Shown here: in pieces, positions 3,426 to 53,121 of the stretch
How the letters are laid out: every line of letters starts with the position of its first letter
Position numbering within the stretch: the first letter of the stretch is position 1
DNA from: Planctopirus ephydatiae
GTDB lineage: Bacteria; Planctomycetota; Planctomycetia; Planctomycetales; Planctomycetaceae
DNA: 64,000 nt
Assembly: GCF_007752345.1 (NCBI RefSeq)
Contig: NZ_CP036299.1
Coordinates: 124,001 to 188,000 of the forward strand
Reading direction: 5' to 3'
Translations under genes and position numbers: made by a program
The notes under the pieces: model-generated
What the model was told of the DNA's origin: nothing
The model's database searches: none
Seen by the model: the letters and a program-made list of their open reading frames with translations, nothing else

Positions 3426-3830
3426 ATGTTCACTCGTCTGGTGTTTGTTCGTGGTCTGTCGGTTCTGGCAGTCATCTCGCTTCTGGCTGGTGGCTGGCAT
3501 GTGGCGCAAATGGTCACAGGGATGGCAGAGCGCTCGCTCGGCAACTATCTGCTGACTGTTTTTCCGTGGGTGGCGGCAATCGTGCTCTGGCCCCTCATTC
3601 GCTGGCTGAATTCTGAGCAGCCAGGACCTGATACCGAAGAAGGCGATGTCAAAACGCCCTCCTTCGAGCCCGTGGTGCAGTCGCTGGATGTTCTGCATCA
3701 CTACTTCCCCGCTTCCTCACCGGCTCAAGAACAGCTGCTGGAACTGGCGAAAGCTGCCATGGCTCAGCGTTACGACAACCGCCAGAGATCCGCGACAGCC
3801 AGGAAATCAGTACGCGGTTCCGTGCGCTAG
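3426..3830 (+). CDS. Small protein with two membrane segments
   Basis: A 134-residue protein with an N-terminal helix (LSVLAVISLLAGGWHVAQM) and a second helix (LLTVFPWVAAIVLWPLIRWL), followed by a soluble acidic-then-basic tail. I do not recognise the family. It lies 94 bases after the previous small membrane gene on the same strand, in the block leading to the terminase genes, so a role in lysis or anchoring is a contextual guess only. Confidence 0.55.
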   Translation: MFTRLVFVRGLSVLAVISLLAGGWHVAQMVTGMAERSLGNYLLTVFPWVAAIVLWPLIRWLNSEQPGPDTEEGDVKTPSFEPVVQSLDVLHHYFPASSPAQEQLLELAKAAMAQRYDNRQRSATARKSVRGSVR

Positions 3831-4033
3831 CCCAAGCCCTCGCCCACGGCTTCCTGAATCTCTGGTTTCATCTCCGTTTCCTTTCTCAGAGAACCTGTCT
3901 CATGGCTTTTCGACGTTGTTTTCGTGCAGGGCGGGTGCAAAGTGCTGCCGCCGCTGGATGGTTCGAAGCCGCTCCTTCGAAGTGCGAGAGTCCACGCGCC
4001 CCACTCTCGCTTCTGTTGCCGCGTGTTCCCACC

Positions 4034-4471
4034 ATGGGGTTTCCCTTCTCCCCCGGGCCTGCCTGTGCTCCGACACGCGTGCTTCCAGCGACAGCCCGAC
4101 GGTTGATTTTCGGTCTGATGGGAAGTTTTCTCCTCGCTTCCCTCGCTGGCTGCCTGACACCCGCCCTGCACGATGATCACCCACGTCCCGAAGTTCCTCT
4201 TTCTACCGATGGAGAGTTGGCCCGAAAGGCGTTGCGAACTTATGCCGCCGGGCTGCAGCAAGCCTTTGGCGAAGCGAGCCAGCGGTCAGAACTTCTCCCG
4301 GCTGAGCTGCACGAAAGTCTCAGCGCACGCATTTCGACCATTCGGCGTGCCGCCTTCGCACCGATTGATGCCCGGCTCGAAGAAGTGATGAATCGCCAGC
4401 CACTCGATGAGCTTGAGGCTCGAAATCTGTTGAAAGAACTCTCTCAAGGTTTTGCTGCAGCGATCCCCTGA
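4034..4471 (+). CDS. Small lipoprotein
   Basis: The protein has a basic N-terminus, a hydrophobic run (LIFGLMGSFLLASLAGC) and a clear lipobox LAGC, so the mature protein would begin at that cysteine. The rest is about 100 mostly helical residues, with no recognised domain. ATG at 4034 is preferred; the frame is open back to 3902, where the extra sequence is low in complexity and unlike a signal. Position after two small membrane proteins and before a protease recalls phage lysis cassettes, where a lipoprotein can be an outer-membrane spanin, but homology is not shown. Confidence 0.6.
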   Translation: MGFPFSPGPACAPTRVLPATARRLIFGLMGSFLLASLAGCLTPALHDDHPRPEVPLSTDGELARKALRTYAAGLQQAFGEASQRSELLPAELHESLSARISTIRRAAFAPIDARLEEVMNRQPLDELEARNLLKELSQGFAAAIP

Positions 4472-4543
4472 GGAAGCTGAGTTTCTGCATCGCGAAACTC
4501 GACTTCGAGCCATGGTTTTCGCCTTTTTTGTGGGGAACATTTC

Positions 4544-5356
4544 ATGAATCAATTTGGTTGGCGCGACGATCTGGAAGAGCGTCTGCTGCTGTCGGCAGCT
4601 TCTCAAGCTCCGCTGACGAGGTCATTCTCGGTCAGCGATGCTCCTCTGGAAATCGATCCTCGCCCATGGCATCGCATTGAAATGCAGGGGTCTCTGGGAA
4701 GCTGCCAGGGGCATGCCCTGTCGAGCGTGGGAGAAATGGCCTATCACCTCGCCAGTGGGCGCGTGACGCAGTTCTCACCTCTGTTTGCCTATTACGCCAC
4801 ACAGCAGATCGATGGGCTTCTGGGGCGCGATCAGGGGAGCACCATTCATGGAGGTGTCCAATGTGCCCGGCAATATGGCTTCTGCCCGCTAGAGGTGTTC
4901 CCGAACCCCGTCCCCTTGCGCTACACCGGTGTGATTCCTCAAGCCGCATGGCCCGCAGCGGCACCGTTTCGCATCCGGTCGCACACTGTCTGCACTTCCT
5001 ATGACGATGTCTGGTCATTTCTCGCAGCCGGGCAAGGAGGAGTGGTGGCTGGCCTGGGCTGGAACAACAGCCTCACGCCGCGTCAGGGGCGCATTGAAAG
5101 TTATCGCCCGGGCGGTGGCGGGCATGCCGTCGCATTTCTGGGATACAGCCGGCGGCGCGATGCCCAGCAACGACCTTATCTCTGGCTGGCCAACAGCTGG
5201 TCAGAGGAGTGGGGAGATGACGGCTGGGCCGAGGTTGCTCCACAGGCTGTGGAATCGATGCTCGCTGATCGCCGGACTGTCATGGTGGGGCTGTCTGATC
5301 TCAGTCTGCCAACACCAAGACCCATTCCCTGGCGAGAAAAATCGATCTTCGAGTGA
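4544..5356 (+). CDS. Papain-like (C1) cysteine protease
   Basis: A 270-residue C1-family peptidase fold. The catalytic set can be read directly: oxyanion Gln48 and nucleophile Cys54 in QGSLGSCQGHA, His194 in GGGGHAVAFLGY, and Asn217 in LWLANSWSEEWGDDGW. The Gln-Cys spacing of six equals that of papain; the usual W-A-F after the cysteine is replaced by Q-G-H. No signal peptide or propeptide of usual length is visible, so secretion would need another route such as a holin. It sits 72 bases after the lipoprotein gene and ahead of the terminase genes. Protease assignment is firm; substrate is unknown (particle maturation, host envelope, or tail entry are possible). Confidence 0.8.
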   Translation: MNQFGWRDDLEERLLLSAASQAPLTRSFSVSDAPLEIDPRPWHRIEMQGSLGSCQGHALSSVGEMAYHLASGRVTQFSPLFAYYATQQIDGLLGRDQGSTIHGGVQCARQYGFCPLEVFPNPVPLRYTGVIPQAAWPAAAPFRIRSHTVCTSYDDVWSFLAAGQGGVVAGLGWNNSLTPRQGRIESYRPGGGGHAVAFLGYSRRRDAQQRPYLWLANSWSEEWGDDGWAEVAPQAVESMLADRRTVMVGLSDLSLPTPRPIPWREKSIFE

Positions 5357-6423: not shown

Positions 6424-7314
6424 ATGCTGCTCAATATCTGCTACCACATCGCCCCTAAGACACCGACCGTTCAGGCCTCGATGGTTTGCGATCACTTCGG
6501 GCTGACACTTGATGGCCAGCAGCAGGTGATTGCCCGCGATCTGGAACTTCCGGTCACTTCCGGAAATCTCATTGCCTTCATCGGCCCCTCGGGTTCTGGT
6601 AAGTCGTCACTCATGCGGGCCGTCGCTGCAGAGCTGAATTCATCGGGTTATGGAGAAGTGCTGTGGCTTGATCATCTGCCGCAGGTTTCGTCACTTGTGG
6701 CCGACGCATTGGCTCTGCCGCCACTGGACGCCTTTCGACTGCTGGCCCAGTGCGGTCTGGCCGAGCCACAACTTCTTTTGCGAACACCCGATGAACTCAG
6801 CGATGGCCAGAGATTTCGCTTTCGCCTCGCACAAAGTGTCGCCGAGTCGCTTCGTCGACAAAGTCAGCGTGCATCACAGGGCACCTGGATTGTGGCCGAT
6901 GAATTCACTTCGCCACTTGATCGCACGTTAGCCAAAGTGATTGCCCGCAACTGGCATTCCCTGTTGCGCCAACATCGCCTCGGTGGCCTCGTGGCCACCA
7001 CACACACCGATATTCTCGACGACCTCGAGCCCGACCTCATCGTCACCTGCAGTCACGACGCGCCGCCTCAGCTTTCCGGCCCGGCCGCCTCGCCGACATT
7101 CTCGTCCGCAACATGGTCCGCACAGCAGACCCTACCGGAGGCCGATGCCCCCACGCCCGCCGTAAAAAAAAAGAAATCAGCTTCTTCCACGAGCTGGCCC
7201 TCACCACCGGAACGAAACGCGACTGGGCGTATTTTGCTCGGTGGCATTACCGCTCGCACTCCGTCGGCATCGTCCGCTTCGTCACGATTCTCTGGCATCT
7301 CCACGAACCGATAG
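6424..7314 (+). CDS. ABC-type ATPase, N-terminal half of a COG2401-like ATPase-acetyltransferase
   Basis: A soluble ABC ATPase domain with Walker A GPSGSGKS (residues 54-61 from the ATG at 6424), a signature LSDGQ, Walker B WIVADE and an H-loop VATTHTD. There are no membrane segments, so this is not a usual transporter. In COG2401 proteins such an ATPase is fused to a GNAT acetyltransferase; here that second half lies in the -1 frame directly after an A9 run at 7164. In the zero frame the protein continues past the run into about 45 low-complexity residues and stops at 7314. The frame is also open upstream to an ATG at 6358. The pair precedes the terminase genes. Confidence 0.75.
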   Translation: MLLNICYHIAPKTPTVQASMVCDHFGLTLDGQQQVIARDLELPVTSGNLIAFIGPSGSGKSSLMRAVAAELNSSGYGEVLWLDHLPQVSSLVADALALPPLDAFRLLAQCGLAEPQLLLRTPDELSDGQRFRFRLAQSVAESLRRQSQRASQGTWIVADEFTSPLDRTLAKVIARNWHSLLRQHRLGGLVATTHTDILDDLEPDLIVTCSHDAPPQLSGPAASPTFSSATWSAQQTLPEADAPTPAVKKKKSASSTSWPSPPERNATGRILLGGITARTPSASSASSRFSGISTNR

Positions 7315-7835
7315 GCATCTGTGTCTTCACCAGTGCCCCACTCTCTTTGCGTTTGCGGAACCAGCACTTTGGTCTTTCCGGCCGCTGGACAAGAACCGGC
7401 CTCCAGGCCATCGATCGGCAGTTCTGCCGATTGGCCCGTGTGGTGATTCATCCCACTTATCGAGGAGCCGGGCTGGCGGCTCCTTTTGTTCGCGCCAGTT
7501 GCCAGCATGTTCCCTGGCCCTGGATCGAATCGCTCGCCGAGATGGGGCAGTTCCACCCCTTCTTTGAGAAAGCCGGGTTCCTCAATCTCGGGGAATGTCA
7601 GTCCGCTTCTGCTTCACAAAATGCGCCTTCAAACCATGTTCGGGAGCAGCATTCCCAAATCTACGGCACACGTTCACTTTCGGGTCGCAAGCGATTGATC
7701 ACTCATGAAACGTTCCGCAAAAGCCAACATGCTCACCCCGTCTACTTCCTCTTCGATAATCGAAACTCACCCGCCTACCTTGCCATTTGCCGAAGAGGAA
7801 TCGCCGACAGTCCCCCATCCCATGCTCTGGAATGA
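7113..7835 (+). CDS. GNAT acetyltransferase domain, -1 frame continuation of the ABC ATPase
   Basis: This frame encodes a GNAT-type domain: DWAYFARWHYRSHSVG, RVVIHPTYRGAGLAAPFVRA (the acetyl-CoA binding segment) and FHPFFEKAGFLN. The convincing protein begins around KKKEISFFHEL, just after the A9 run, so the domain is most simply made by ribosomes shifting -1 from the ATPase frame; the ATG at 7113 has no visible ribosome binding site. The C-terminal part after about 7600 is poorly conserved in appearance and overlaps the start of the next gene. Substrate is unknown. If the A run is a sequencing or mutational error, this would be an ordinary fusion or a pseudogene. Confidence 0.65.
   Translation: MVRTADPTGGRCPHARRKKKEISFFHELALTTGTKRDWAYFARWHYRSHSVGIVRFVTILWHLHEPIGICVFTSAPLSLRLRNQHFGLSGRWTRTGLQAIDRQFCRLARVVIHPTYRGAGLAAPFVRASCQHVPWPWIESLAEMGQFHPFFEKAGFLNLGECQSASASQNAPSNHVREQHSQIYGTRSLSGRKRLITHETFRKSQHAHPVYFLFDNRNSPAYLAICRRGIADSPPSHALE
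7164..7173 (+). other. Candidate -1 ribosomal frameshift site (A9-G run)
   Basis: Zero-frame codons read GTA AAA AAA AAG AAA, so the heptamer A AAA AAG sits in the frame needed for tandem tRNA slippage, as at E. coli dnaX. A -1 slip joins the ABC ATPase to the GNAT domain. No stimulatory hairpin or upstream Shine-Dalgarno was established. Confidence 0.55.
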
Positions 7836-8265
7836 ATCACTCGAAGCCACACCACAGCTTCTGAAACCCGCACTGCTCACCAGCGATCAACAGGCTGAGT
7901 TTCTCGAACTTCTCACAAAAGGAGCCAGCCCGTTTGGTGCCTGTGAGAAGCTGGAATGTTCGCAACTGCAACTGGCACTCACACTCGCGCAAGATGCCGA
8001 ATTTTCCGAGAAGCTCAGGGCGATCAAAGAAATTCAGGGGCAGAACGTGGTGGCCATGCTCTATCAGGCGGCCCTCAAGGGAAATGTCACAGCTCAGCAA
8101 TTCTGGCTGCGCCATCAGCCACCAGCCGACTGGCGACTGGCTGCCAGCCCACTGGAAGGACAAGACCTCAGCGATGCCGATCTCTTTGACCGCTGCCGAG
8201 AGGCAGGACTTGACTTCCCGCCTGAACTCACTGCGCGCCTGGCAACTCCTGATCTCGAGGCATAA
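7705..8265 (+). CDS. Phage terminase small subunit-like protein
   Basis: A 186-residue protein whose core reads as a helical DNA-recognition region (FLELLTKGASPFGACEKLEC) followed by a segment typical of small terminase or terminase-adjacent proteins (YQAALKGNVTAQQFWLRHQP, then PADW). Its position directly before the large subunit supports the call; the family is diverse, so homology needs a profile search. The first 39 residues are low in complexity and overlap the GNAT frame; ATG at 7822 would reduce that overlap to 14 bases. The small subunit would select the DNA to be packaged. Confidence 0.6.
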   Translation: MKRSAKANMLTPSTSSSIIETHPPTLPFAEEESPTVPHPMLWNESLEATPQLLKPALLTSDQQAEFLELLTKGASPFGACEKLECSQLQLALTLAQDAEFSEKLRAIKEIQGQNVVAMLYQAALKGNVTAQQFWLRHQPPADWRLAASPLEGQDLSDADLFDRCREAGLDFPPELTARLATPDLEA

Positions 8266-9772
8266 TCCTCACAGCTTCCGGCAGGTGGTCCGTCTCTCTG
8301 CCGCCGATCGAACGAGGCAGGCCACACTCGAATCGTGGCAACGGGCCGATTTCGCAGCTCTCGACCCCGCCTGGCGTCAACTGGCATTCGGTTCTCGTCC
8401 ATCGTTATCACAGGCCGAATCGACCACTTCTGCCACTTCCCACATTCTCCGCAGGGCCTATCTCGAGCGACCTCGTGGCCACTCGAAAACCACCGATATC
8501 GCCCTCTCCTGTGCCTGGATTCTCGCCTTCGCTCAGGAACCTGTCACTGGCATTGCTGCGGCTGCCGATCGTGAACAGGCCCAGTTACTCCTGCAGGCGA
8601 TTGCGCGACTCGTGCGGCTCAATCCCCACCTGCTCGGCCATTTGCAGGTGCAGCAGGAACGGGTGATCCATACGCACACGCGCAGCCGGCTCGATGTCAT
8701 TTCTTCCGATGTCGCCAGTTCCTGGGGCCTGCTCCCCGATTTCGTCATTTGCGATGAACTCTGCCACTGGACAAAGCCCGACCTGTGGCATTCGCTCGTC
8801 TCGTCCGCCGCCAAGAAGCCGCACACCTTGCTCGCTGTGATGAGTAATGCCGGTGTGGGCCGTACCTGGCAATGGCAGGTTCGCGAGGCTGCCCGCACTT
8901 CTTCGGAGTGGTACTTCTCGTCACTCCATGGCCCTCAGGCAAGCTGGATTACTTCCGAAACACTGGCCGAGCAGGAGCGTTTGCTCCCCGCGACCGTCTT
9001 TGCCCGCTTGTGGCTCAATCAGTGGCAGCAAGCGGAAGGCGACTTCGTCACTCTGGACGAAGCCCGGGCCTGTATCGATCCCACACTCGCGCGGAAAGAG
9101 CATGGTTCACCCGGCATTCATTATGTGGCGGCCATCGATTATGCCGAGAAGCACGACTGGACAGTCGCCATCATTCTGCATGCCGAGGGAGATCGCCTGA
9201 TCGTCGATCGCATGGATGTCGCCATTCCACAGCCCGGGCGGCCCACTCCCGTCGCGTGGGTCGATAACTGGCTGACCTGGGCAGCGAGTGCCTTTGACGA
9301 TATTGAGTTCGTGCTCGATGAGTATCAGTTATTGTCCGTCATCCAGCATCGCTCGGCAGAACTCTCACTCGAACGCTTTTCGTTTGCTGGCGGAGCCGGG
9401 AATCACGCCCTGGCAATGTTATTAAGGCAACTGATTATCGAACGCCGCGTGCTGTGGTACCCCGGTTGCGGCTCGCCGCAATTTGATCAACTCGATTTTT
9501 CCCATGGCCCCACTCCTGCAGAAGCGCTGATCAATCCCGAGACGACGACGCAGCCGGGAGAAGAGAACGATCTGGCTCAGGAACTGGCGACTCTGATTCT
9601 GCGTCAATCGCCTTCGGGCCGGTTGCGTTTTGACCATCGGAATGAAGCCGGCTTCCACGACGACCGCGCCTTCGCCCTCGCCGCCGCCTGTTTGAAACTG
9701 ACAAAAACACCCATTTCCCCCTCCTACTTCGACCTCACCCCACCGACAACCGACGGTGCATTCGCCTGGTGA
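8210..9772 (+). CDS. terL: Phage terminase large subunit (packaging ATPase-nuclease)
   Basis: The packaging motor. From the TTG at 8210 the protein is 520 residues. Walker A is RPRGHSKT (87-94), Walker B is FVICDE (178-183), and the C-terminal RNase H-like nuclease begins at AAIDYAEKHDWTVAIIL with Asp310 and Asp316; a later acidic position is likely in FVLDEY and another in HDDRAF. The frame is open far upstream through the small-subunit gene, so the start is a judgement: GAGAGG lies eight bases before TTG 8210, while GTG 8285 is an alternative. It overlaps the small subunit by 56 bases, as is common in phages. It ends the plus-strand block; the expected next gene, the portal, is 42 kb away on the other strand. 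Confidence 0.85.
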   Translation: MTSRLNSLRAWQLLISRHNPHSFRQVVRLSAADRTRQATLESWQRADFAALDPAWRQLAFGSRPSLSQAESTTSATSHILRRAYLERPRGHSKTTDIALSCAWILAFAQEPVTGIAAAADREQAQLLLQAIARLVRLNPHLLGHLQVQQERVIHTHTRSRLDVISSDVASSWGLLPDFVICDELCHWTKPDLWHSLVSSAAKKPHTLLAVMSNAGVGRTWQWQVREAARTSSEWYFSSLHGPQASWITSETLAEQERLLPATVFARLWLNQWQQAEGDFVTLDEARACIDPTLARKEHGSPGIHYVAAIDYAEKHDWTVAIILHAEGDRLIVDRMDVAIPQPGRPTPVAWVDNWLTWAASAFDDIEFVLDEYQLLSVIQHRSAELSLERFSFAGGAGNHALAMLLRQLIIERRVLWYPGCGSPQFDQLDFSHGPTPAEALINPETTTQPGEENDLAQELATLILRQSPSGRLRFDHRNEAGFHDDRAFALAAACLKLTKTPISPSYFDLTPPTTDGAFAW

Positions 9773-39496: not shown

Positions 39497-40447
39497 TTAT
39501 GTGGTTGGGGCTTTGAGGTCGCGCATGGGGCAGGTGAGTTGAGGGGCGATAATGGGTTGGCCGGTGTAGAGGCCGCGGGTTTGCTGATGTGCTGGCGGGC
39601 CCTGGATGTGCGAGAGATCTTCGAGGGCGTGTGCGATGGTCTGATAGGGGAAGAAATCGTTGAGGCGACTGTGAGGTGTGACGGAGATGAGCTTCAGGCC
39701 CGTTTGGGTCAGTGCCTGGCGTGAGAGTCTGAGGAGTTGAACGGTGCGCTGGTAGTGGTCGTCGGTGCGAAGGGTCGCTGCCAGGGGCTTGGCTTCATCA
39801 AAGTGATATTGAGGGCCCGTGATGGCGGTTTCTGTGAGTCCCGGGGCGATGTTCTGGCTGCGGCAGGCTTCGAGGAAGAGCCGGAGTGATTGGCCGGGCT
39901 GGTAATTGAGGCCGTGCTGCTGAGCCTGTTGCTGGAGTTCCGTCGAGGGAGCGATGTAGAGTTCGCAGCCTGCGAGGTAGATGGTGCGAAAGCCGAGATG
40001 CAGGAGCAGATCGAGGGCCTGAATGAAAGAATCGTTCCAGTCGAGAATGCGGGTGGCGGCTGGTGAGAACGACTGGGAGAAGTTGCGTTTTTCGTGTTCG
40101 AAGAAGACCACGCCGGGGCATTCACAGAGTTTGAATGTGTCGCCGGGGAGGAGATCCATGGCCCGTCTCTTGTGAATGAATTTAAGAGTGCGGGGTGTGC
40201 GGTAGTTGGCTGGGAGGAAGCGTGTGGTGGGGTCGTAGGCTGTCCAGAAGTCGGGGATGATGTGGCCGTGACCAGCGAGGTTGATGGCCATGATGGGAGC
40301 GAGCGACGAGCGAATTTTTTCGAGTGGAAGAGTCGTGAGCGAAGGGCCGCCACCTAAGAGCCAGCAGGCGGAACCTTGCGGCCCTGCGTAGAGGTTTTCG
40401 AGATCGAGCGGCGACCATTGCTGATCGGTGGTCGAACGATAGAACAT
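39497..40447 (-). CDS. Unrecognised protein, possible sugar-transfer enzyme of the virion block
   Basis: A 316-residue protein starting with a Rossmann-like loop CWLLGGGPSLTTLPLEK and MAINLAGHGHIIPDFWTAYD, then LGFRTIYLAGCELYI in the middle. The G-G-G-P-S-L motif with P-D-F-W resembles the DUF115/MptE-like group and some bacterial sialyltransferase-like folds, but I cannot assign it. It sits between the Ser-rich tail protein and two glycosyltransferase genes, all on one strand, which favours a sugar-related role. The function remains a guess. Confidence 0.6.
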   Translation of the reverse strand: MFYRSTTDQQWSPLDLENLYAGPQGSACWLLGGGPSLTTLPLEKIRSSLAPIMAINLAGHGHIIPDFWTAYDPTTRFLPANYRTPRTLKFIHKRRAMDLLPGDTFKLCECPGVVFFEHEKRNFSQSFSPAATRILDWNDSFIQALDLLLHLGFRTIYLAGCELYIAPSTELQQQAQQHGLNYQPGQSLRLFLEACRSQNIAPGLTETAITGPQYHFDEAKPLAATLRTDDHYQRTVQLLRLSRQALTQTGLKLISVTPHSRLNDFFPYQTIAHALEDLSHIQGPPAHQQTRGLYTGQPIIAPQLTCPMRDLKAPTT

Positions 40448-40477
40448 GCCCGTGGTGCTTTCGAGGAGGGAAAAGAG

Positions 40478-42355
40478 TTAAGGGAGATCTTCGGCAGGGA
40501 CACTCGCGGGGAGTTCTAACGATTCGCTGGCGGTGGATGCGGAGGATTCAGTGACGGGAAACTCGGCGTCGTCACTGCTGAACGAGATAGGGGCGGTCTC
40601 TGTCGAATCGAATGAATGAGGCGGCTCGAAGGATGTGGAGGTGGCTGCTGAATCTGTGTTCGATGTGGTTTCATGCGAATTGAGATCGCTGGAGAGCGAA
40701 GTGCTGGCGAGCGAATCGCTGTTCGATGATGAATCTTCGAGAGATTCTGAGGATGACCACAATGAAGATGACATTGATGAAGACGACATCAGTGAAGACG
40801 ACATCAGTGAAGACGACATCAGTGAAGACGACATCAGTGAAGACGACATCAGTGAAGACGATATCAGTGAAGATGACCAGAGAGAGGATGACCAGAGAGA
40901 GGATGACCAGAGCGAAGAGGAGTGCCAGCTGGCTGAGCTTTCCATGCTGCTGGATGTGGCCGATGAGGAGTGACTGGCATCGCTGCTGGTGAAGGTTGGA
41001 TGGTCGGATGAGTCGCTGGTGAGCCACGAACTGGAGTCTGAGGAACTGGCGAGCAGAGTAGAGGACTCACTCGAAGAGAGTGCGAGCGAGGAAGAGAGTT
41101 CGTCAGAAGTGAGAGAGTCGGTGCTGGAGGAAGAAGTGCCGCCACCACCGCCGCCGGGAGACCAGGGGAGGGGGATCTCTTCGCCGCCAAAGCCAGAGGG
41201 GAGTTCGCTGGTGGGTGCGAGGGGCCAGCGTTCATCGTGATCGGGTTCTGGCCAGAGAGTTCGCGGATCAACAGGGCCGAGTTCGAGCCTGTAAACAGGA
41301 GTTTCATTGAATTCGATACGCAGTTTGTCGGCCTGCCAGGTGGCTCCGGTGGATGCCGGGAAACCTTCGAGTTGATAGCGGGCTTTCCAGGGGGGCAGCC
41401 ATTGGGTCGAAGCGACCGACTCCACCAGCAGGCGGCCTGTCGGAAAGGCATATTGCGAAAAGAATTCCTTAAGGAAGCCACGGGCATCCTGAGCCGTACG
41501 AATCCACGGAACCCACAAGCGAATGCGGCGTTCGCCATACAAGGCTCGACTGGTGGGTTCGGTGTAGTTGCCGCGCCAGCGATAGGGCTGGCCATTGGAA
41601 AGATAGAGGTAGGCCCCGGTCAGCAGGACGCGATTGAAGATCTGGTCGAGACTGCGGGAGTGTTCGAGCTGGACAACCGAAGTTCGAGGAATGGACTGTG
41701 TCGCGAATTCCTGCCCGGCACGGAAAAAGAAGCAGCCCGTTTCATCGACACCCCAGGGAGCATTGCCAGCCCTCAGAGCGAGATCTTTAAAGATCGAACG
41801 GAGTGATTCTTCGCCATGAAACTTGAAGCTTTCCAGAGGGACGGGAGTGGCGGTGTGGGTGATTTCTTCGGGTGGGAAAGCGATCTGTGTGCTGGCGATC
41901 TCTTCGAGTTCGAGCAGTTTGCGGACGACGTCTTCCGGCCGTGACGCGAAAGCGAAGGATTCGTTGCCATAATCAGGATCGAAGGAGAACCCACCTTCAG
42001 TGAGCCCGAGTCGATAAGGATCAGGGGCATCGGTTTCGTTATTCGCGAAGCCGCCTGGGAAGACTTCGCCCAGTTCAACTGCGAGGCCTTCCAGACGAAT
42101 GATGGCGCGGTTGGGCCAGCGGGTGAGATGTTCTTCAATGCGTCCGAGGTACCAGCGGGTGCCCAGGTGATCTTCAATCGAGACAAAATCGCCGGGTGGG
42201 AAGAGTGGGCTGTTGAGCGGGAGCTGGCATTCGAGTTCGCCCGGGCCGCAGCCCCCTTGCCGGAGCCATTCGAACCAGCAATTGGAGACGAGCCGCTGGT
42301 CGATGAGGAGAGGTGCTGCTGTGGGGCTGCCGGCATGGAGAAAGATGTTGCGCAT
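40478..42355 (-). CDS. Tail-associated protein with a Ser-rich pentapeptide repeat tail
   Basis: The 625-residue protein has a globular part of about 400 residues (starting MRNIFLHAGSPTAAPLLIDQ; with CFFFRAGQEFATQSIPRTSV, resembling baseplate-hub or tail-tip proteins by position) and a C-terminal region of about 225 residues rich in Ser. The latter holds about eleven tandem SSSLx units (SSSLW, SSSLI, SSSLM), coded by a 15-base repeat at 40750-40918. ATG 42355 is preferred; the frame is open to 43171 through repeat DNA. It lies last in the tail gene series. Tail function is inferred from position. Confidence 0.65.
   Translation of the reverse strand: MRNIFLHAGSPTAAPLLIDQRLVSNCWFEWLRQGGCGPGELECQLPLNSPLFPPGDFVSIEDHLGTRWYLGRIEEHLTRWPNRAIIRLEGLAVELGEVFPGGFANNETDAPDPYRLGLTEGGFSFDPDYGNESFAFASRPEDVVRKLLELEEIASTQIAFPPEEITHTATPVPLESFKFHGEESLRSIFKDLALRAGNAPWGVDETGCFFFRAGQEFATQSIPRTSVVQLEHSRSLDQIFNRVLLTGAYLYLSNGQPYRWRGNYTEPTSRALYGERRIRLWVPWIRTAQDARGFLKEFFSQYAFPTGRLLVESVASTQWLPPWKARYQLEGFPASTGATWQADKLRIEFNETPVYRLELGPVDPRTLWPEPDHDERWPLAPTSELPSGFGGEEIPLPWSPGGGGGGTSSSSTDSLTSDELSSSLALSSSESSTLLASSSDSSSWLTSDSSDHPTFTSSDASHSSSATSSSMESSASWHSSSLWSSSLWSSSLWSSSLISSSLMSSSLMSSSLMSSSLMSSSLMSSSSMSSSLWSSSESLEDSSSNSDSLASTSLSSDLNSHETTSNTDSAATSTSFEPPHSFDSTETAPISFSSDDAEFPVTESSASTASESLELPASVPAEDLP
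40750..40918 (-). repeat. 15-base tandem repeat encoding SSSLx units
   Basis: Units of AGTGAAGACGACATC on the plus strand, with related GATGACCAGAGAGAG units at one end, about eleven in total. Copy number can change by slippage without breaking the frame. Confidence 0.85.
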
Positions 42356-42610
42356 GAAGTGAGCCGGGGTAGGGGGAGTTGTGGGTTGTTGGTGGATGGT
42401 TGGGAGTCGGGTGTTTCGCGCGAAGACAGCGAAGGGGAGAAGGCAGGAAGGGAAAGAGTTTGTGGTGAATGTGGGAGCATTGTACGACACAAGAAACACG
42501 CATGGCGCGCCATCTTGTTGTCGTGGCTTGGCACGACAACCCGGCCACCAGTTGGCCGGGCCACCCAACTCCCAACACCCAGCACCCAACTCCTGCGAGA
42601 AGGTGAAGGG

Positions 42611-42636
42611 CATGCTTGCCCAGAGCTGCAAGCATG
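42611..42636 (-). repeat. Dispersed palindromic repeat, copy 7 (inverted)
   Basis: CATGCTTGC-CCAGAGCT-GCAAGCATG, identical to copy 4 in orientation and loop, followed by GCACGAAG. Confidence 0.8.
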
Positions 42637-42680
42637 GCACGAAGCAGGCCAAATCAAGAGGTTTAGGAAATGGGGAAAAG

Positions 42681-42730
42681 ACCCTCACCCGGCCCTCTCC
42701 CACGCAGACGTGGGCGAGGGTTCCAGAGGG
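42681..42730 (+). repeat. Dispersed repeat family B, copy 5
   Basis: ACCCTCACCCGGCCCTCTCC, CACGCAGACGTGGGCGAGGG, TTCCAGAG: the fullest copy of this family. Confidence 0.7.
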
Positions 42731-42851
42731 GATGTTGGCGAGATGGAGTGAGTGAGTAGCATGCGGGAGCATGTCCCACAAATGAGCCGATTTGATCTTC
42801 TTGGAGAACTTCGCGGGTTCGCGTGAGAACGGCTTTTCGTTGAGAGGTCTC

Positions 42852-43292
42852 TCAGGCGGTGTGGATCTGGGGATCGTCGGCCTGGATCGTGAGGGAATAG
42901 GTGTAGAGGCTGGCTTCGGAGAGATCCCATTCCAAACGGGTGGTCGAGCACTCCTGGAAGTATTGGCGCTCATTGGTGACGGGATCAAAAAAGAGCACAA
43001 AGTCGAACTTGGGCTGTGACTCGCCCACATGCAGGGCCTCGCGCAGCGAGAGAAGTGTGGCGAGCATCTCGGCTTCGGTGAAGCGGACTTCTTCCGCCTG
43101 AGCAGCGACCTGTCCTTGAATGACAATCGTTGAGCCACCTTGAGAATGACCGACCGTGCGCTGGCCATCAATCAGTGGAGACTTGAAGCGCTCGGCATCC
43201 CAAACGTCCTGCACACGAAGAGAAACGATGGGCCGAGGGAGTGGAAATGAGGCGGTCGACCGGGCGATCGCCGGGTGGAACTGGAGTGGCAT
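42852..43292 (-). CDS. Probable tail-tip protein
   Basis: A 146-residue protein between the tape-measure gene and the Ser-rich tail gene. It has a beta-rich look (RPIVSLRVQDVWDAERFKS, STIVIQGQVAAQAEEVRF, FDFVLFFDPVTNERQYFQEC) with no family I can name. Position fits a distal-tail or tail-tip component. ATG 43292 begins a clean frame. Confidence 0.6.
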   Translation of the reverse strand: MPLQFHPAIARSTASFPLPRPIVSLRVQDVWDAERFKSPLIDGQRTVGHSQGGSTIVIQGQVAAQAEEVRFTEAEMLATLLSLREALHVGESQPKFDFVLFFDPVTNERQYFQECSTTRLEWDLSEASLYTYSLTIQADDPQIHTA

Positions 43293-43392
43293 GATATCGC
43301 GAACCGATGGGTAAAGGGGAGAAGTTTGAAGTTGGAAGCTGGCGCTGCATGGCGGGCTAGATCAAGACGTTTAAGAAATGGGGAAAAGGATC

Positions 43393-44124
43393 TTAGCCGC
43401 GGCGATGGCGGAGTCTTTGGGCATCGGCGGCCAGGTTCTGTGTGAATGATGCGAGATCCAGAGTTTGGGCCATGTGAACGTGCAGTTCGCCAATCGATTG
43501 ATGGTGGGAATTCTGAACGGTGGCTTGTGGAGCTATGGCTCTTGAAGAGCCGGAAGCAGCGGCTGAAAGTTGTGACAGATTTCCGACCCCGAGTCGCTGC
43601 ACGACTTCGGAACTCAGGACGTATTCACCAGCCGTGAGGAGAGCCGGGATGCGGTCGATGCCTGGTGGGCCAGTGACGAGTCCACCCGTGGCAAAGCGGC
43701 GGGTCGTGGCAGAGCCGCCACCAGACACAGCGGAGCCGGTGCCAGTCGGTACAAAAGAACCTGTGCCCAGGGGCAGATAACCTGAGCCGGTGATCGAAGG
43801 GAATGTCGAGACTTGCCGGGCCAGTTGACTGAGTGCTCGGCTGACGGAGGCAATGGCTGCCAGAGCCGGGCTGACATTGAGATTGAGGGGTGTGCCTGAG
43901 ATCTGCTGAATCTGGCGCTGGAGGCCTTGCAGGCTCCGGCTGAGACGTTCGACGGAGTTCATGGCACTGGTCATTTGAAAGGCACTCGTCAGCCGGGATG
44001 CGGATGAAGAGAGCCGATCGGTGGAGGATTGCAGAGAGCTGAGTTGCCGCCCGAGATCTCCCAGCCGCGATTCCAGCTCGGAGCTATCGGCGAGAATGCG
44101 GAGGGTTAAGGATTCGGAGTACAT
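43393..44124 (-). CDS. Short tail tape-measure protein
   Basis: Only 243 residues, against several hundred to over a thousand in most siphophages. The N-terminal half is a coiled coil (LESRLGDLGRQLSSLQSSTD and following), with hydrophobic Ser-rich helices; the C-terminal half holds the motif FATGGLVTGPPGIDRIPALL then TAGEYVLSSEVVQRLG, typical of tape-measure C-termini. The tape measure sets tail length, so a tail near 35-40 nm would be expected if the usual 0.15 nm per residue applies. It follows the tail tube gene. Confidence 0.75.
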   Translation of the reverse strand: MYSESLTLRILADSSELESRLGDLGRQLSSLQSSTDRLSSSASRLTSAFQMTSAMNSVERLSRSLQGLQRQIQQISGTPLNLNVSPALAAIASVSRALSQLARQVSTFPSITGSGYLPLGTGSFVPTGTGSAVSGGGSATTRRFATGGLVTGPPGIDRIPALLTAGEYVLSSEVVQRLGVGNLSQLSAAASGSSRAIAPQATVQNSHHQSIGELHVHMAQTLDLASFTQNLAADAQRLRHRRG

Positions 44125-44238
44125 GGGGAGGCTCGATGGGGGAGTGGAGGGTTGTTGGTGGATGGTTGGGATTACTTCGCGCGAAGACTGCTAAGGCAGC
44201 GAAGGGAAGAAGGCGGGAAGGGAAAACGGAGAAGGATT

Positions 44239-44275
44239 AGTGCATTCCGCTGGCGCTGCATGGCGCCCTACGGGA
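44239..44275 (+). repeat. Dispersed repeat family D, copy 2
   Basis: TAGTGCATTCCGCTGGCGCT, GCATGGCGCCCTACGGG, in the spacer between tube and tape-measure genes, next to a polypurine unit (44205-44238). Confidence 0.65.
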
Positions 44276-44292
44276 AGAGGAATGCGAAGTCG

Positions 44293-44811
44293 TTACTCCG
44301 CGGTGGAGCGGGTGATTTGTGGTGCTGTCTGGAAGGCTCGGCCGTCGAAGGCGATGGTGTTGGCTTCGGCGCCTTCAGATAGAGTGAGGGTTTCGCGGTA
44401 GACATTGAGAAACGTGACGACTTCGCTGGAGCCGCCGGCGGGATCGTGAATGGTGAAGATGAGTTCGAGTGTCTGTTGCTGGCCGGCGGGTGACGTGCTG
44501 GTGATGTTGGCTGCTGGCTGAAAGGTGAGGAACTCGTAGAGTGCCAGGGGATCGGTTGGTTCAATCGCTTGACTGAGCAGTTGTGTCCACTTGGCAGTAA
44601 ACGAGAGCGAGACCGATTCGTCGTCGCCTTTACGGAGATGACCTTGTGCAATTGAGCCGCGATCTTTGATTTCGATGGTGCGCGAGCGTTCTGTCCAGGA
44701 GAGATCGCCTTCATCAAGCAGGACGATGAGCGATTTGGGTGTGGGAGTCGTGCCATCGCGAATGAGAAGTTCCCCATCGCGAAGATTTCGAACGAGAGCC
44801 GAGGTGGGCAT
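44293..44811 (-). CDS. Major tail tube protein candidate
   Basis: A 172-residue protein with alternating strands: ELLIRDGTTPTPKSLIVLLD, LSWTERSRTIEIKDRG, DESVSLSFTAKWTQLL, LELIFTIHDPAGGSSEVVTF and TIAFDGRAFQTAPQ. The length, beta content and position just before the tape measure fit a siphophage tail tube protein. ATG 44811 is used; the frame is open further up through the spacer. No single motif proves the call. Confidence 0.65.
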   Translation of the reverse strand: MPTSALVRNLRDGELLIRDGTTPTPKSLIVLLDEGDLSWTERSRTIEIKDRGSIAQGHLRKGDDESVSLSFTAKWTQLLSQAIEPTDPLALYEFLTFQPAANITSTSPAGQQQTLELIFTIHDPAGGSSEVVTFLNVYRETLTLSEGAEANTIAFDGRAFQTAPQITRSTAE

Positions 44812-44884
44812 AGAGTGCCTCAAAAGGAAGAGATGATGGGGATGGGAATGACGAGGATCGGGGATGACCGTCAGGATGTGGACT

Positions 44885-45337
44885 TCAGGAGGTGCGGGCC
44901 GTGATGAGGAACTCGCGCCCCAGGAGTGTGGGAGCTGATGTTTCGATCGATCGAGACGTGAGGTCGGCCACGCGGAGATAACCAATGATGCTGGCGGGAT
45001 TTTCGGGAAGATCATTCAGGATGGGAATGGTCTGTTCGTGCCAGGCCTGAGTGACGACTGTCTGAAGTTGTTCCAGTCGGCTGTGCAGAGAAGGGAGAGT
45101 TGTCTCGGTGGAGGAGGTGATCTGTCTGACAAAGAGCCGGAGAGTGATGACGCAGGCGATGTGAGAGCGACCGAGCCTCTGGATGGGCTGCGTCCAGCTA
45201 TCGACGCGGAGTTCGCACCATTGCTGCCATGCTTGAGGATCGGCTTTGCGGCCTGGCCAAAGCGTGGGGAGTTCATCTGGGCAGACCGTTTGCCAATAGT
45301 CGATGAGACTGTGCTGGAGTTGGGCAGGTGAGGGCAT
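44885..45337 (-). CDS. Tail terminator-like protein
   Basis: A 150-residue protein with WCELRVDSWTQPIQRLGRSH and ACVITLRLFVRQI, followed by a helical segment SRLEQLQTVVTQAWHEQ and a short beta end. Small alpha/beta proteins at this site, between the gp10-like gene and the tube gene, are usually tail-terminator or minor tail components. ATG 45337 is 26 bases after the gp10-like stop. Confidence 0.55.
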   Translation of the reverse strand: MPSPAQLQHSLIDYWQTVCPDELPTLWPGRKADPQAWQQWCELRVDSWTQPIQRLGRSHIACVITLRLFVRQITSSTETTLPSLHSRLEQLQTVVTQAWHEQTIPILNDLPENPASIIGYLRVADLTSRSIETSAPTLLGREFLITARTS

Positions 45338-45363
45338 GTGGGGAGTTCGCCTCCAGTAAAAGA

Positions 45364-45753
45364 TCAGCGGATCTGTTCGAGAATTGCCCGCCGGATCATG
45401 GCGAAGGGAGACATCTGGCTGGTTCCCAGTTCGAGAAACGGCATGTAGGGAACCTGATTGACAATCGTGATGGTGGAAAGCGAACCGATGTTTCCTTCCG
45501 TGATCTGCAGATCGGGAGTTGCGGTATTGGCGGCTGTTTCGGGCTGGAGTTGTTGGGCAGCGAGCAGCCAGCTCGATTGAGCCCGGCCTGTATCGACAGG
45601 AGTCAACTGGGCAATGCGCTGCAGCAGTTTTTTGGCTGTCTGACGAACGAGTCGCTGGCGGAAGGGAGTGAGCTGATCGCGCTGAAAGTCGGGAAAGATT
45701 CCCTGAGCGGGTGGAGGTTGGAGCAAAATGCGGAGTGCCAGGGGTTGGTTCAT
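45364..45753 (-). CDS. HK97 gp10-like head-tail connector protein
   Basis: A 129-residue protein with the gp10 family pattern: helical start RQRLVRQTAKKLLQRIAQL, the TPVDTGRAQSSW turn, and the C-terminal VPYMPFLELGTSQMSPFAMI. This family forms part of the neck between capsid and tail. ATG 45753 is used; a TTG at 45798 is in frame. Confidence 0.8.
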   Translation of the reverse strand: MNQPLALRILLQPPPAQGIFPDFQRDQLTPFRQRLVRQTAKKLLQRIAQLTPVDTGRAQSSWLLAAQQLQPETAANTATPDLQITEGNIGSLSTITIVNQVPYMPFLELGTSQMSPFAMIRRAILEQIR

Positions 45754-45794
45754 GGGTGAATGAGATCGATGGGGAAAAGAGAGAGAAGAGATCT

Positions 45795-46187
45795 TCAATC
45801 GGCAGGGGCCAGAGCACGGGCTGAAATCACCAGGAGTTCGGAATCCGGGAGTGGATGGATCTGGGTGACGGCCCAGTGACTGTGGGGAGTCGATAATTCA
45901 AGCAGTGCACCCTTGGGAAGGACAGGCCATGCGCTGGCTCGGACGAAGAAGCGGGTTTCTGGCGTGACTGCTGATAAAGTGCCTTGAGGAGAGGACGTGG
46001 GCTGTCTGGCCAGTGTGTGATCGGGCAGGACAATGAGTGGTGCGTCGGGAATTATCAGCCACGTGCGGCTGGGTGGCTCGTGAGGCGACGTTTCGAGCAC
46101 AGCCAGCAATTGGGCGGGTTGGCCCCAGTCGTGAAACATGAGGAGCAGATCGGTGGACACCAGATCTGTGAAGGCAAGTGCGGGCAT
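45795..46187 (-). CDS. Probable head-tail joining protein
   Basis: A 130-residue beta-rich protein (LLLMFHDWGQPAQLLAVLE, TRTWLIIPDAPLI-like, HSHWAVTQIHPLPDSELLVI). Located just before the gp10-like gene, where a head-closure protein usually lies; the pattern with a final beta hairpin fits tail-attachment proteins. No firm family. Confidence 0.5.
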   Translation of the reverse strand: MPALAFTDLVSTDLLLMFHDWGQPAQLLAVLETSPHEPPSRTWLIIPDAPLIVLPDHTLARQPTSSPQGTLSAVTPETRFFVRASAWPVLPKGALLELSTPHSHWAVTQIHPLPDSELLVISARALAPAD

Positions 46188-46220
46188 GATGACCTTTGAA
46201 TCGAAAGCGTCGAAGAATGC

Positions 46221-46466: not shown

Positions 46467-46510
46467 CGGGTGAGATCCTGAAGAGAAGGGATGTGCCGGG
46501 GAGTTGGCGT

Positions 46511-47589: not shown

Positions 47590-47657
47590 GGCCTGAAAAC
47601 CTGCACGAGGATGGTTGAAGAGTCGGCAACAGAGGGAATGGGAGGTTCAGTGAACGA

Positions 47658-48851
47658 TTATTCTTCGCTGCCATCGACTTTGGTGACGAAGACCGTATCG
47701 ACGGCTGAAACTCCGCCGAAGTAACGGGCTTTCACCCGCAGGACGACATCGCGATCGAAAGCCGCTTCGCTCGTTTCCCGCTGGAGGAAGGTTTGCACGG
47801 GCCAGATTTCTGTCCAGACGAACTGGCGCTTGAAATCGCCCAGATACCACGAAGAGAGGGCACTGCCTCCCTGCTCATCAATGAACGGGGACGAGAGGAC
47901 TTCGAACTGATCGCGAATGGGGTTGGCGAGGCGGGTTTCGCGGTCTTCGGTGGTGACGATGATCTCGCTGGCATGCACGAGGCTGCGCGCGGTACCACGC
48001 AGTTTTTCCGGGACAAGTATCTGCCGGGCGGGAACGAGAATGGGCCGCGGGGCACCATCGATGCGGTCATCCTTGATCTGTGTCGCGCGATAGTTGAGCA
48101 CTTTGTCGATGTCGTCCCAGTTGGTGAGTGGGAGACTTCCGGCAAAGTCCGTGGAGGTGATGTTGTCGGGCCCGATGACGTTCTGATGCGAACCATCAGC
48201 CTTGTAAAGAACCTGGCCCTGGCCGGAAGGTCGATAGACAAACCGCTGATGGCCAGCGTCGGCATCAGTCACTGCCCGCACAATCGTGCGTTCTCTTTCC
48301 TGACGCAGATAGAAGCCCAGGGCCAGTGCCCGGCGGTTGATTTCGCCCGTCTGGTCAAAAGCAATCAGCTCTTCATTGATCGAGAGAATGCGGCCGCGTT
48401 TGGCTTCTTCGGTGGTGATGAATTTTTCACTGAAGGTTGACTCTTCATAGGGATGACCTTCCGAGACTTCCGTCGGGCCGCTCAAGGCGCGAAAGCCCGC
48501 CAGCTTCTGCGATCTTCCCCGGCTGGGAAGAACGGTCACAAGGCGATCGCCAATGAAGCCGGAATCGTCTTCGTAGCCTTCGAGAACTTTGCGGCCAATG
48601 AGTTCGGCCGTAACGACTTGAAAGAGCGACGAGTTCACGCCGGGATTGGATTCTCGCAAAAGTGCGGGAATGGGAAGATCGGTGGCGAGTGGCCGCGTCG
48701 AGCGCAGCTCCGGGAGGACACCACAGGCTTCGGCAAGTTCGTAATAACTGAAGTCATCGACGGAGAGCTGCTTTTCATTGAGCAGCGTACAGACCTTGTG
48801 ATAGAAGCCTTCGGGGCCGAGTGAAGCGATGAGTGGTTGCAGGTGTGGCAT
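47658..48851 (-). CDS. Major capsid protein
   Basis: A 397-residue protein with the look of an HK97-fold or Mu gpT-like capsid protein: an N-terminal helical region (SLGPEGFYHKVCTLLNEKQ), a central part (EESTFSEKFITTEEAKRG, ILSINEELIAFDQTGEINRR), and C-terminal blocks RDQFEVLSSPFIDEQGGSA and SWYLGDFKRQFVWTEIW, where refolding strands would sit. The gene follows the protease and decoration genes, which is the standard order. No cleavage site of an N-terminal delta domain is assigned. Confidence 0.8.
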   Translation of the reverse strand: MPHLQPLIASLGPEGFYHKVCTLLNEKQLSVDDFSYYELAEACGVLPELRSTRPLATDLPIPALLRESNPGVNSSLFQVVTAELIGRKVLEGYEDDSGFIGDRLVTVLPSRGRSQKLAGFRALSGPTEVSEGHPYEESTFSEKFITTEEAKRGRILSINEELIAFDQTGEINRRALALGFYLRQERERTIVRAVTDADAGHQRFVYRPSGQGQVLYKADGSHQNVIGPDNITSTDFAGSLPLTNWDDIDKVLNYRATQIKDDRIDGAPRPILVPARQILVPEKLRGTARSLVHASEIIVTTEDRETRLANPIRDQFEVLSSPFIDEQGGSALSSWYLGDFKRQFVWTEIWPVQTFLQRETSEAAFDRDVVLRVKARYFGGVSAVDTVFVTKVDGSEE

Positions 48852-48948: not shown

Positions 48949-49446
48949 TTACGCTTCGGATTCCGGAAGTGGGCCTAACTGCGCATGAATGTTGCTGCTG
49001 GCGACGCTGTACGCACTGGCAAAATTGACACGCAGTGTCGTCGTGCTGCTTACCGATTCAGCCGCCCGGGCAATGGCTGCCGTACTGGCCGAAGCGGCTA
49101 ACTGCTGCTTCGACAAGGCACTGGGAGCCCCATGAATCGCGATCGTCTGGCCCACGGTGTAGTTGCCGGATGAGACCGCATATTCGTAAGTGGCGAGCGG
49201 GCTGATATCGACTGAGACGGGAGCATTCTGCCCCGCTGCTGAAGCCTGATGAGCCACACCCACGAAGGCGGCTGCAAAGTTTGTCTGGGTGGTGGCGAGA
49301 TTGGTTGTCCAGGGAAATGACGAAGCGGGCTTGATGGAGGTGCCATCGAAATAGACAAGGTCACCCGGCTCGATGACGGTTTCACTGGCGACGGGCCAGC
49401 GCTGGAGTTGAACCTGACCAGAACGGAAACGGAGTGCTGGAAGCAT
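48949..49446 (-). CDS. Capsid decoration protein, DUF2190-like
   Basis: A 165-residue protein of beta character: EPGDLVYFDGTSIKPASSFP, FAAAFVGVAHQASAAGQNAP, ATYEYAVSSGNYTVGQTIAI and an Ala/Ser-rich C-terminus. Proteins of this shape between the protease and the capsid gene decorate or stabilise the shell. Confidence 0.65.
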   Translation of the reverse strand: MLPALRFRSGQVQLQRWPVASETVIEPGDLVYFDGTSIKPASSFPWTTNLATTQTNFAAAFVGVAHQASAAGQNAPVSVDISPLATYEYAVSSGNYTVGQTIAIHGAPSALSKQQLAASASTAAIARAAESVSSTTTLRVNFASAYSVASSNIHAQLGPLPESEA

Positions 49447-50556: not shown

Positions 50557-51918
50557 TCATACACCTGGTGCGGCTTCTTCATTGAGTTCTCGCCGCATGG
50601 TGTGTGGATCGGCGTGATCGCGGCGGGCAACTTCGGCCCGGCTGAGAATTCCTTTCTCAACCAGTTGGACATCAGCCAGCCGTTCGCGGGGACGATCTCG
50701 ATTGACGAGCTGCGGAAATGACCAGTGAGGCACAATGCGATCGAGCAGATCTTCGGGCCAGCCTCGTGTGATTGCAGCGGCTCGTAACACGGCCCGGCTC
50801 AACTGCTCGAACTCACGGGCGAAGAACTGCTGCTCACTCTCAAAGAGCTTGACGGCCGGACCTTCTGCCACCATCGTCGAAGAGTAAGAGGCATTCGAGG
50901 CATCGCTGGAGAGCATGAACTCCGGCAAACCCGCACCAGCCGCCACACAAAGCAGCAGCAATCGACCCAGCGGGACGGCATCACCAAAGTTCGTATTGGG
51001 CGAAAGGAACTGCAGATCGGTCGTATGGGAGGTCGTCAGGATACTTCCCGGCAGATAACGTTCGCGGGGAGTATGGCCACTCTCGGACATTTGAGAGAGT
51101 TGAGCGGGCGTGCCTTGAATCTTACGCCATAAAACCAGCGAAGCCTGCAGCTTCCGGGCTGTCAGTTCGGTCTCCAGCCAGTGGTCAAATCGGGAAAGTG
51201 AATCGATGATAGGAGCAAAGAGACTGATGCCGCGTCGTTCGTTGGAATCGATTCCTATTCGCGTGTGAATCACGTCTTCGGCGGGAAGGTCACCTTGCCA
51301 CTGGCCCGTGAGTGGATCGACATGATGATAGGCCACCACCGATTCGACATCGCCAGGCAGAGTCACAATCCCTTCGTCTTCCGGAGCATGAGGCAAAGGA
51401 GCGATCGCTTCGGGGTCGATAAATCGAACTTCGAGTGAACCATCGGGCATGGGGAAGAGTCGCAGGAAGACTTCGCCATCACGCCAGGCTCGGCGGGCAT
51501 ACTCTCGCGGCGAGAAGTGGCGGGAGTTCCGACTGAGAAACTCCTTCCACAGCCGGGTGGCTGCGTTGGCAAGTTCCTGATCTTCCGGTCGATGGGCCTG
51601 AAAAGTAAGTTCAAGACCGGCACCCGCCACATAAATCTCCATGAGCCTCAGCAGGTTGCGAGCATGGGGATTTTCACTCACCAGTTGCCGGGCTTGATCG
51701 CGCAGATGCAGCTTGCGGGTGGCCCGCCAGGCACTCGCACTCCCGACGGGAAGCGAACTCTGCGGTGTGGAGCCCGAGATCTGCTGCCATCCAGCCACAT
51801 CGTCGTCTTTCAGCGAGGTTTTTCGCTCGACCAGTTGAAGCAGCTGTTCACTCACTCGACGCCGGTAGCGAGCCTGTGTCTGCCAGCGAGCCAGGGTATC
51901 TGCCAGAAATGTGAGCAT
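50557..51918 (-). CDS. Phage portal protein (lambda B-like)
   Basis: The portal is the ring through which DNA enters the capsid. The 453-residue protein has the expected domains: DQARQLVSENPHARNLLRLM and EIYVAGAGLELTF near the N-terminus, RAWRDGEVFLRLF, FIDPEAIAP, AEDVIHTRIGIDSNERRGIS, HWLETELTARKLQASLVLW, and the crown-side ISLFAPIIDSLSRF. The motif PDSNERRG with surrounding residues is typical of lambda-family portals. The gene leads the minus-strand virion block. ATG 51918 has GGAAAG upstream; a GTG four codons earlier is in frame. The terminase that should precede it is at 8.2-9.8 kb on the other strand. Confidence 0.88.
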   Translation of the reverse strand: MLTFLADTLARWQTQARYRRRVSEQLLQLVERKTSLKDDDVAGWQQISGSTPQSSLPVGSASAWRATRKLHLRDQARQLVSENPHARNLLRLMEIYVAGAGLELTFQAHRPEDQELANAATRLWKEFLSRNSRHFSPREYARRAWRDGEVFLRLFPMPDGSLEVRFIDPEAIAPLPHAPEDEGIVTLPGDVESVVAYHHVDPLTGQWQGDLPAEDVIHTRIGIDSNERRGISLFAPIIDSLSRFDHWLETELTARKLQASLVLWRKIQGTPAQLSQMSESGHTPRERYLPGSILTTSHTTDLQFLSPNTNFGDAVPLGRLLLLCVAAGAGLPEFMLSSDASNASYSSTMVAEGPAVKLFESEQQFFAREFEQLSRAVLRAAAITRGWPEDLLDRIVPHWSFPQLVNRDRPRERLADVQLVEKGILSRAEVARRDHADPHTMRRELNEEAAPGV

Positions 51919-52177
51919 GGAGCTTTCCACCGTTAGAAGTGTGAGTGAACTGGCCTCTCACCCTAGCAGCGGTTGTTGCGCGCAAAAGTGTGTTCAGTGG
52001 GTCGTTTCGGGCGAACCTTTCAAGAGCTGCGTCTGTCAGTGGCAAAAGCTGTCGGGGAAACTTTTTGAAGAGGATTTCATCACTGGTGAATATCCCCCGG
52101 AGTTTCCCTCCAGCGTTATTGCGGATACAACAAGAGGACAAGTTCACCATCCCGAGTGCCCTCCAGGATTGTTCGTC
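51919..52177. other. Divergent spacer at the proposed second inversion junction
   Basis: Between the portal and ilvE. No gene. It would be the other junction of a flipped segment. No obvious inverted copy of the 9773-10163 stretch is seen by eye. Confidence 0.4.
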
Positions 52178-53044: not shown

Positions 53045-53055
53045 AACTCCACTCG

Positions 53056-53118: not shown

Positions 53119-53121
53119 AAA

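Follow-up and report, generated by a model that had tools for sequence, protein, structure and literature searches.

A probable two-product ATPase-GNAT gene in a phage-derived packaging cassette of planctomycetes, with RNA polymerase slippage at nine A's as the favored link between its frames

Overlapping ATPase and GNAT frames beside the terminase genes

The window (the whole 64-kb stretch of DNA analyzed here) carries on its forward strand an ABC ATPase frame that begins with ATG at 6424 and ends with a stop codon at 7312-7314 (6424..7314). Read without a shift, this frame encodes a protein of 296 amino acids that matches Pfam ABC_tran with 34.5 bits (cut-off 25), and its translation contains what we take to be the Walker A (GPSGSGKS), signature (LSDGQ) and Walker B (IVADEF) motifs. 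As the preliminary description stated, a run of nine A's (A9) lies within the frame at 7164..7172, and the zero frame across it reads GTA AAA AAA AAG AAA; homologous pairs also place the change of frame at this run. A second frame on the same strand, at -1 to the ATPase frame, is open from 6921 and its stop codon ends at 7835. Directly after the run (7173..7835) it encodes a GNAT acetyltransferase domain, again as described before. This domain matches PHROG 886 (E 6.8e-11) and scores 16.1 bits in Pfam, below the cut-off of 27, while its predicted model is GNAT-like (mean pLDDT 78.9) with fold matches filled by GNAT chains. The overlap of the two frames at -1 around an A9 run is therefore confirmed. 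The forward-strand stretch 7173..7314 holds both the start of the GNAT domain and the unshifted ATPase tail, which extends 49 residues past the run in the window genome, and stop avoidance and reduced synonymous change suggest that it is dual-coding (see below).

The A9 run is the sole homopolymer of at least eight nucleotides in the window, for which a first-order model gives 0.16 expected A-runs of nine or more. The whole 5.2-Mb genome has eight distinct A/T runs of at least nine, the window A9 among them, by a hand count from 13 overlapping matches.

The terminase genes follow the ATPase/GNAT gene directly, in agreement with the earlier claim that they adjoin it. The first is a TerS-like gene (7705..8265, forward strand, start uncertain; PHROG 309 terminase small subunit, E 4.8e-7), and the second encodes the terminase large subunit, TerL (8240..9772, forward strand, start uncertain; Pfam TerL_ATPase, 42.1 bits, cut-off 23.7; PHROG 9, E 1.4e-28). 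A head-gene cluster lies on the opposite strand (39500-54615), with its portal, cement and capsid genes about 38-42 kb past TerL and so split from the packaging cassette. It comprises a portal gene (50557..51930; Pfam Phage_portal_2, 101.6 bits, cut-off 32.9), a possible cement gene (48949..49446; Pfam Phage_cement_2, 19.2 bits, below the cut-off of 24) and a capsid gene (47658..48851; Pfam Phage_capsid_4, 62 bits, cut-off 27, with relatives in the family). A possible tape-measure-like match (43393-44124) and an ORF without an assigned function that matches PHROG 2034 (53122-54615, E 1.2e-51) are on the same strand.

The run and the -1 offset inside and outside the family

We searched 170 genomes of the family and found a GNAT match in 48. 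The ATPase and GNAT frames could be paired in 46 of these, window included; the two left out were G153, a fragment at a contig end, and G068. In G068 (L109, L110) the junction A9 is present, the GNAT frame is broken soon after its start and the remainder is on another contig.

The GNAT frame is at -1 in 35 of the 46 pairs, and 31 of these 35, from 18 genus codes, have an A9 run; two of the others have A8 and two have no run (L083 and L087). One pair (L089) has a +1 offset with A8. The remaining ten pairs are in frame: seven without a run, two with A10 and one with A9 (L085). Among the junction runs of at least eight, 32 of 37 are exactly nine long. The 31 loci were grouped by having an A9, and conservation is therefore better judged from the share of -1 pairs with nine A's (31 of 35) and from the share of runs of at least eight that are nine long (32 of 37). 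In 50 related stretches (373,659 bases), all 34 A/T runs of nine or more are at an ATPase/GNAT junction, 33 of them in paired loci (31 A9, 2 A10) and one at the rearranged junction of G068. Two loci, L091 and L151, have eight A's only and retain the slippery heptamer. In L077 the zero frame carries a TAA at the run; this locus may represent a loss, and it fits neither polymerase slippage nor ribosomal shifting.

Of the 31 A9 loci, 24 have a run that starts at codon position 1, six at position 3 and one at position 2. The net -1 offset was kept in all three phases, so that changes on the two sides of the run have balanced each other. In 15 of the 31 the run starts within a stop codon of the GNAT frame, and ahead of the run the GNAT frame has no ATG, GTG or TTG in 21 and has one in ten. 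GNAT identity between genera is 48-62%. In a tree of the 46 rows, which is unrooted and has 20 of its 43 inner branches open, we counted at least five gains or losses of the run and at least six switches between shifted and fused. Alignment A1 contained 19 rows, with L029 excluded for a stop within the stretch.

To look beyond the family we assembled 70 loci: 14 from other families of the phylum, 52 from IMG/VR and four from named phages. A search of IMG/VR with a single protein gave no match, and a search with an alignment gave the 52 loci, of which three have no upstream ATPase match; L117, without a GNAT match, is not counted among the 70. Both domains are in one ORF in 58 of the 70 (11 of 14, 47 of 52 and none of four, respectively), and the named phages nickie, SSU5, RHEph10 and RHph_X66 have the ATPase and GNAT as separate ORFs. 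The only outside locus with a run at a -1 junction is L151, on an IMG/VR contig classed as viral, where the junction is A8 followed by G. Since its GNAT is 61% identical to that of the window, L151 probably belongs to the same family as the window.

The prevalence of the one-ORF state outside the family indicates that the fusion is probably old and that the shifted gene arose within the family. The preliminary description held that homologues with both domains in a single frame and no A run would speak against a programmed shift. Such homologues exist, seven of them among the 46 family pairs, and in the comparison they read as the ancestral state and not as a refutation. A gene that is mostly fused elsewhere seemingly became a two-product gene that has lasted through 18 genera. 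Proteins with an ABC ATPase and a GNAT domain presumably correspond to COG2401, and the record of Escherichia phage Cyrano has the name 'MK0520 ... ABC-type ATPase fused to a predicted acetyltransferase'. The window gene has the same domains in the same order, and in phages such genes likewise adjoin terminase genes. It differs in that its domains are not in a single frame: the known proteins are mostly one ORF, or two genes in the four phages, whereas the window gene appears to be joined by a shift. A literature search for COG2401 and MK0520 found no papers.

Two family loci have departures near the GNAT frame. In L087 (G089, one contig), close to the start of GNAT at position 3674 in the oriented locus, an in-frame ATG follows a Shine-Dalgarno-like stretch, and this locus may perhaps have switched to a separate GNAT start. 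In L098 (G053) the GNAT frame (3765-4853 of the oriented locus) reads without a stop into the TerS-like gene, and the two seem to be fused in one frame.

Selection in the overlap and the joining of the two frames

If both products are used, the stretch just past the run is read in two frames, and we looked for signs of this in the 75 nt past the run and in GNAT codons 1-32. None of the 31 A9 loci has a zero-frame stop within 75 nt past the run, against 7.62 expected from synonymous shuffling of the GNAT codons (P ~3e-5 under independence of the loci, an assumption that does not hold). Three of the seven run-less fused relatives do have a zero-frame stop within this distance. Identity at fourfold sites in the first 32 codons is 0.634 in the 31 A9 loci against 0.36 in the rest, and remains 0.616 against 0.36 with one locus per genus (18 loci). 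In the run-less fused relatives, a small control, the values are 0.388 against 0.375 (six loci); adding a near-duplicate (seven loci) gives 0.471 against 0.419. Column diversity is 0.295 in 14 overlap cases and 0.605 in 79 others (P 5e-5, a value that, like the other P value, takes no account of relatedness). Fourfold identity also climbs near the end of GNAT (0.46-0.53), partly in fused relatives as well, so the overlap is not the sole constrained part. The standout feature is the absence of earlier stops and not the zero-frame stop near +100; the idea that the latter is itself selected was dropped, since fused relatives often stop there too. Taken together, both frames look selected within the overlap of the shifted genes, which hints that both products count. 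The first suggestion, that a programmed -1 change lets one gene yield two products, is thus well supported by comparison: 31 of 46 pairs keep both the offset and the A9.

We consider it probable, with some reserve, that this is a two-product gene of a phage-derived packaging cassette whose frames are joined by RNA polymerase slippage at the A9. The unslipped mRNA would give the ABC ATPase alone. Occasionally the polymerase would insert one A, changing A9 to A10 in the transcript, which would bring the -1 frame into line and give an ATPase-GNAT fusion of about 470 amino acids, so that both proteins would be made. The two relatives with A10 in the DNA are both in frame. In the part of Baranov 2005 (PMC1088944) drawn on here, slippage is sought as an A/T run of at least nine in the overlap of two frames, which is what the window has, and as conservation, which here extends to 31 of the 46 pairs. 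The same part treats conservation of an A9 together with its ORF layout as a mark of slippage that is likely used, and finds that in a large fraction of genomes selection against slippage becomes apparent at a length of nine. The loci that do not follow the pattern count against slippage: L091 and L151 are at A8, and L077, L083, L087, L089 and L085 are off pattern. Each A9 also holds a slippery heptamer, which counts against slippage as the sole reading.

That heptamer is the basis of the main alternative, programmed -1 ribosomal frameshifting, in which tandem lysyl-tRNAs would slip on A-AAA-AAA or A-AAA-AAG and yield the same fusion; we regard this as rather unlikely, though more probable than the separate-start, phase-variation and sequencing-error readings considered further on. 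The zero frame of the window contains X-XXY-YYZ heptamers as both A-AAA-AAA and A-AAA-AAG, every A9 run includes one, and the A8 variants L091 and L151 have kept it. The preliminary description proposed a shift of the dnaX type at A-AAA-AAG. Its heptamer is present in the window; the ribosomal mechanism is less well supported. Most homologues have AAA AAA AAA followed by G (the 24 position-1 runs of 31), so that the heptamer is A-AAA-AAA. We looked for stimulators at the 31 A9 loci and found neither an enrichment of Shine-Dalgarno sequences (mean match 2.29 against 2.08) nor downstream structure by folding without pseudoknots (mean z +0.10; z below -1.5 in three of 31 loci, and in 2, 3, 3 and 7 of 31 controls). 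Stimulators are not strictly required for a ribosomal shift. In E. coli, according to the part of PMC4066793 used here, heptamers without a stimulator shifted at only 2.1- to 10-fold the 0.055% background, a low level that argues against this route. A ribosomal heptamer requires seven A's, and the run is nearly always nine whatever its phase, which means that 31 of the 35 loci at -1 kept two surplus A's, and that each of the three phases is represented among them. Because the run is usually nine long in any phase, most homologues have A-AAA-AAA and no stimulator was detected, slippage fits better than a ribosomal shift. The two routes yield an identical protein, and the locus could serve as a natural test bed for polymerase slippage versus ribosomal frameshifting.

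Known cases resemble the window gene in part. The dnaX gene of E. coli shares A-AAA-AAG with it. There, a ribosomal shift with Shine-Dalgarno and stem-loop stimulators truncates the product, whereas the shift proposed for the window would extend it and no stimulator was detected. As far as the sections of PMC1088944 drawn on describe it, Thermus thermophilus dnaX also has an A9 in its coding region and makes a long and a short product from one gene. In that gene, which also differs in identity and function, nine A's encode the long product and slippage gives the short one, while in the window nine A's encode the short one. In Shigella mxiE, as summarized in the same source, slippage is needed to join two overlapping frames into a long product, as proposed here, at a U run in a regulator gene and not in a fusion gene of a packaging module. 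The main text of the GeneTack paper (PMC3711429), which covers two planctomycete genomes, does not mention an acetyltransferase, an ATPase or a terminase. A shifted gene conserved across a family is of interest in this context. Conserved bacterial recoding beyond dnaX, prfB and mobile-element genes is, to our knowledge, uncommon.

A further reading, in which GNAT overlaps the ATPase as a gene in its own right with a separate start and two proteins are made as in the four named phages, is improbable. The window does have an ATG in the GNAT frame at 7113, but it is absent from the 93%-identical copy in G092. The ten A9 loci with an upstream ATG, GTG or TTG and the ATG of L087 behind its Shine-Dalgarno-like stretch would suit such a start; the 21 loci without a start codon before the run and the 15 with a stop at the run would not, and the run itself would be left unexplained. 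As a general rule a separate start was rejected on account of these 21 loci, and for G089 (L087) it is possible. Phase variation, in which the length of the DNA run would differ between cells so that A10 turns the fusion on and A9 turns it off, deserves very little credence: A8, A9 and A10 are all seen between species, yet nearly all junction runs are exactly nine and the -1 offset is retained while the phase moves. That homopolymers are error-prone and that L077 and G068 look damaged would favor a sequencing error or a decaying pseudogene, a reading to which we give almost no weight, given 31 genomes that agree in both the offset and the length of the run, some of them single-contig (G000, G005, G095, G150, G157), and a GNAT conserved between genera; sequencing error was rejected because of the conservation of run and offset.

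Putative function and descent of the packaging cassette

The best solved fold match of the GNAT model is phage Mu Mom (8bv8; Z 12.7, rmsd 3.8, 166 aligned), with which RimI (2cnm; Z 12.2) ties. In phages, GNATs coupled to ABC ATPases have been predicted to acylate a DNA base, as stated in the part of PMC7824862 drawn on here, and the window gene has the same pairing of domains. We suggest that the fusion is a putative acyltransferase whose substrate would be DNA around packaging, with the free ATPase as a partner present in larger amounts; the role in DNA modification rests on this published prediction and on the fold match tied with RimI. The locus hints at a set stoichiometry of a predicted DNA-modifying enzyme within a packaging module.

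The cassette resembles phage packaging modules in its gene content and order. Relatives of the TerS-like gene and of TerL are each present in 44 of 51 stretches, the window's included. Downstream of TerL, L093 and L094, the two relatives examined there, both have a portal gene; upstream of the ATPase, the two examined, L082 and L094, both have a ParB-like gene. In nickie and RHEph10 the order is ParB-like gene, ABC ATPase, GNAT, terminase and portal, the same as in the family cassette; the RHph_X66 stretch ends in the terminase, and the record of SSU5 stops short of one. TerL gave no match to the named phages. By coordinates, the capsid gene lies no more than about 10 kb from the cassette in G090, G149, G162, G044 and G069 and far from it in others, for example G089, G095, G150 and G157. 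Three genomes (G006, G052, G053) have the ATPase/GNAT pair and no capsid match in the family search. Another four (G055, G096, G115, G155) have a strong capsid match and no GNAT match, and three of these four are less than 75% complete.

We then compared the protein distances of the cassette with those of the housekeeping protein AhcY. The genes were not obtained or found in every genome, and the inputs were accordingly unequal (34 genomes for AhcY, 28 for capsid, 41 for TerL and 46 for ATPase+GNAT). Spearman correlations with AhcY were 0.346 for ATPase+GNAT (n 34), 0.386 for TerL (n 31) and 0.268 for capsid (n 26), and 1, 0 and 0 of 999 permutations, respectively, were as high. The distances of the three cassette proteins correlate mutually at 0.535-0.578. 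Because the cassette distances follow AhcY, with modest correlations, the cassette seems to be largely vertically inherited, with splitting, in the manner of a gene transfer agent (GTA). It shares with gene transfer agents the presence of terminase, portal and capsid genes on chromosomes of the family, partly split and, as it seems, largely vertical. A putative GTA-like element is thus brought to light in planctomycetes; among the matches listed, there was no report of one.

As a tentative synthesis, it is possible that a GTA-like machine is inherited vertically throughout the family, that slippage at its A9 sets the ratio of the bare ATPase to a Mom-like DNA acyltransferase fusion, that the dual-coded tail of the bare ATPase is functional, and that the switch is retuned by a run length of 8, 9 or 10 or by a return to one frame. 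We consider this combined picture less likely than not.

Elsewhere in the window, the reverse strand has a very long ORF of 1655 amino acids at 58481-63448. A second portal match of the lambda family (L119, G000:C1:2503953-2504924) is located elsewhere in the genome; it is stronger, with 170.7 bits, and perhaps belongs to a separate prophage.
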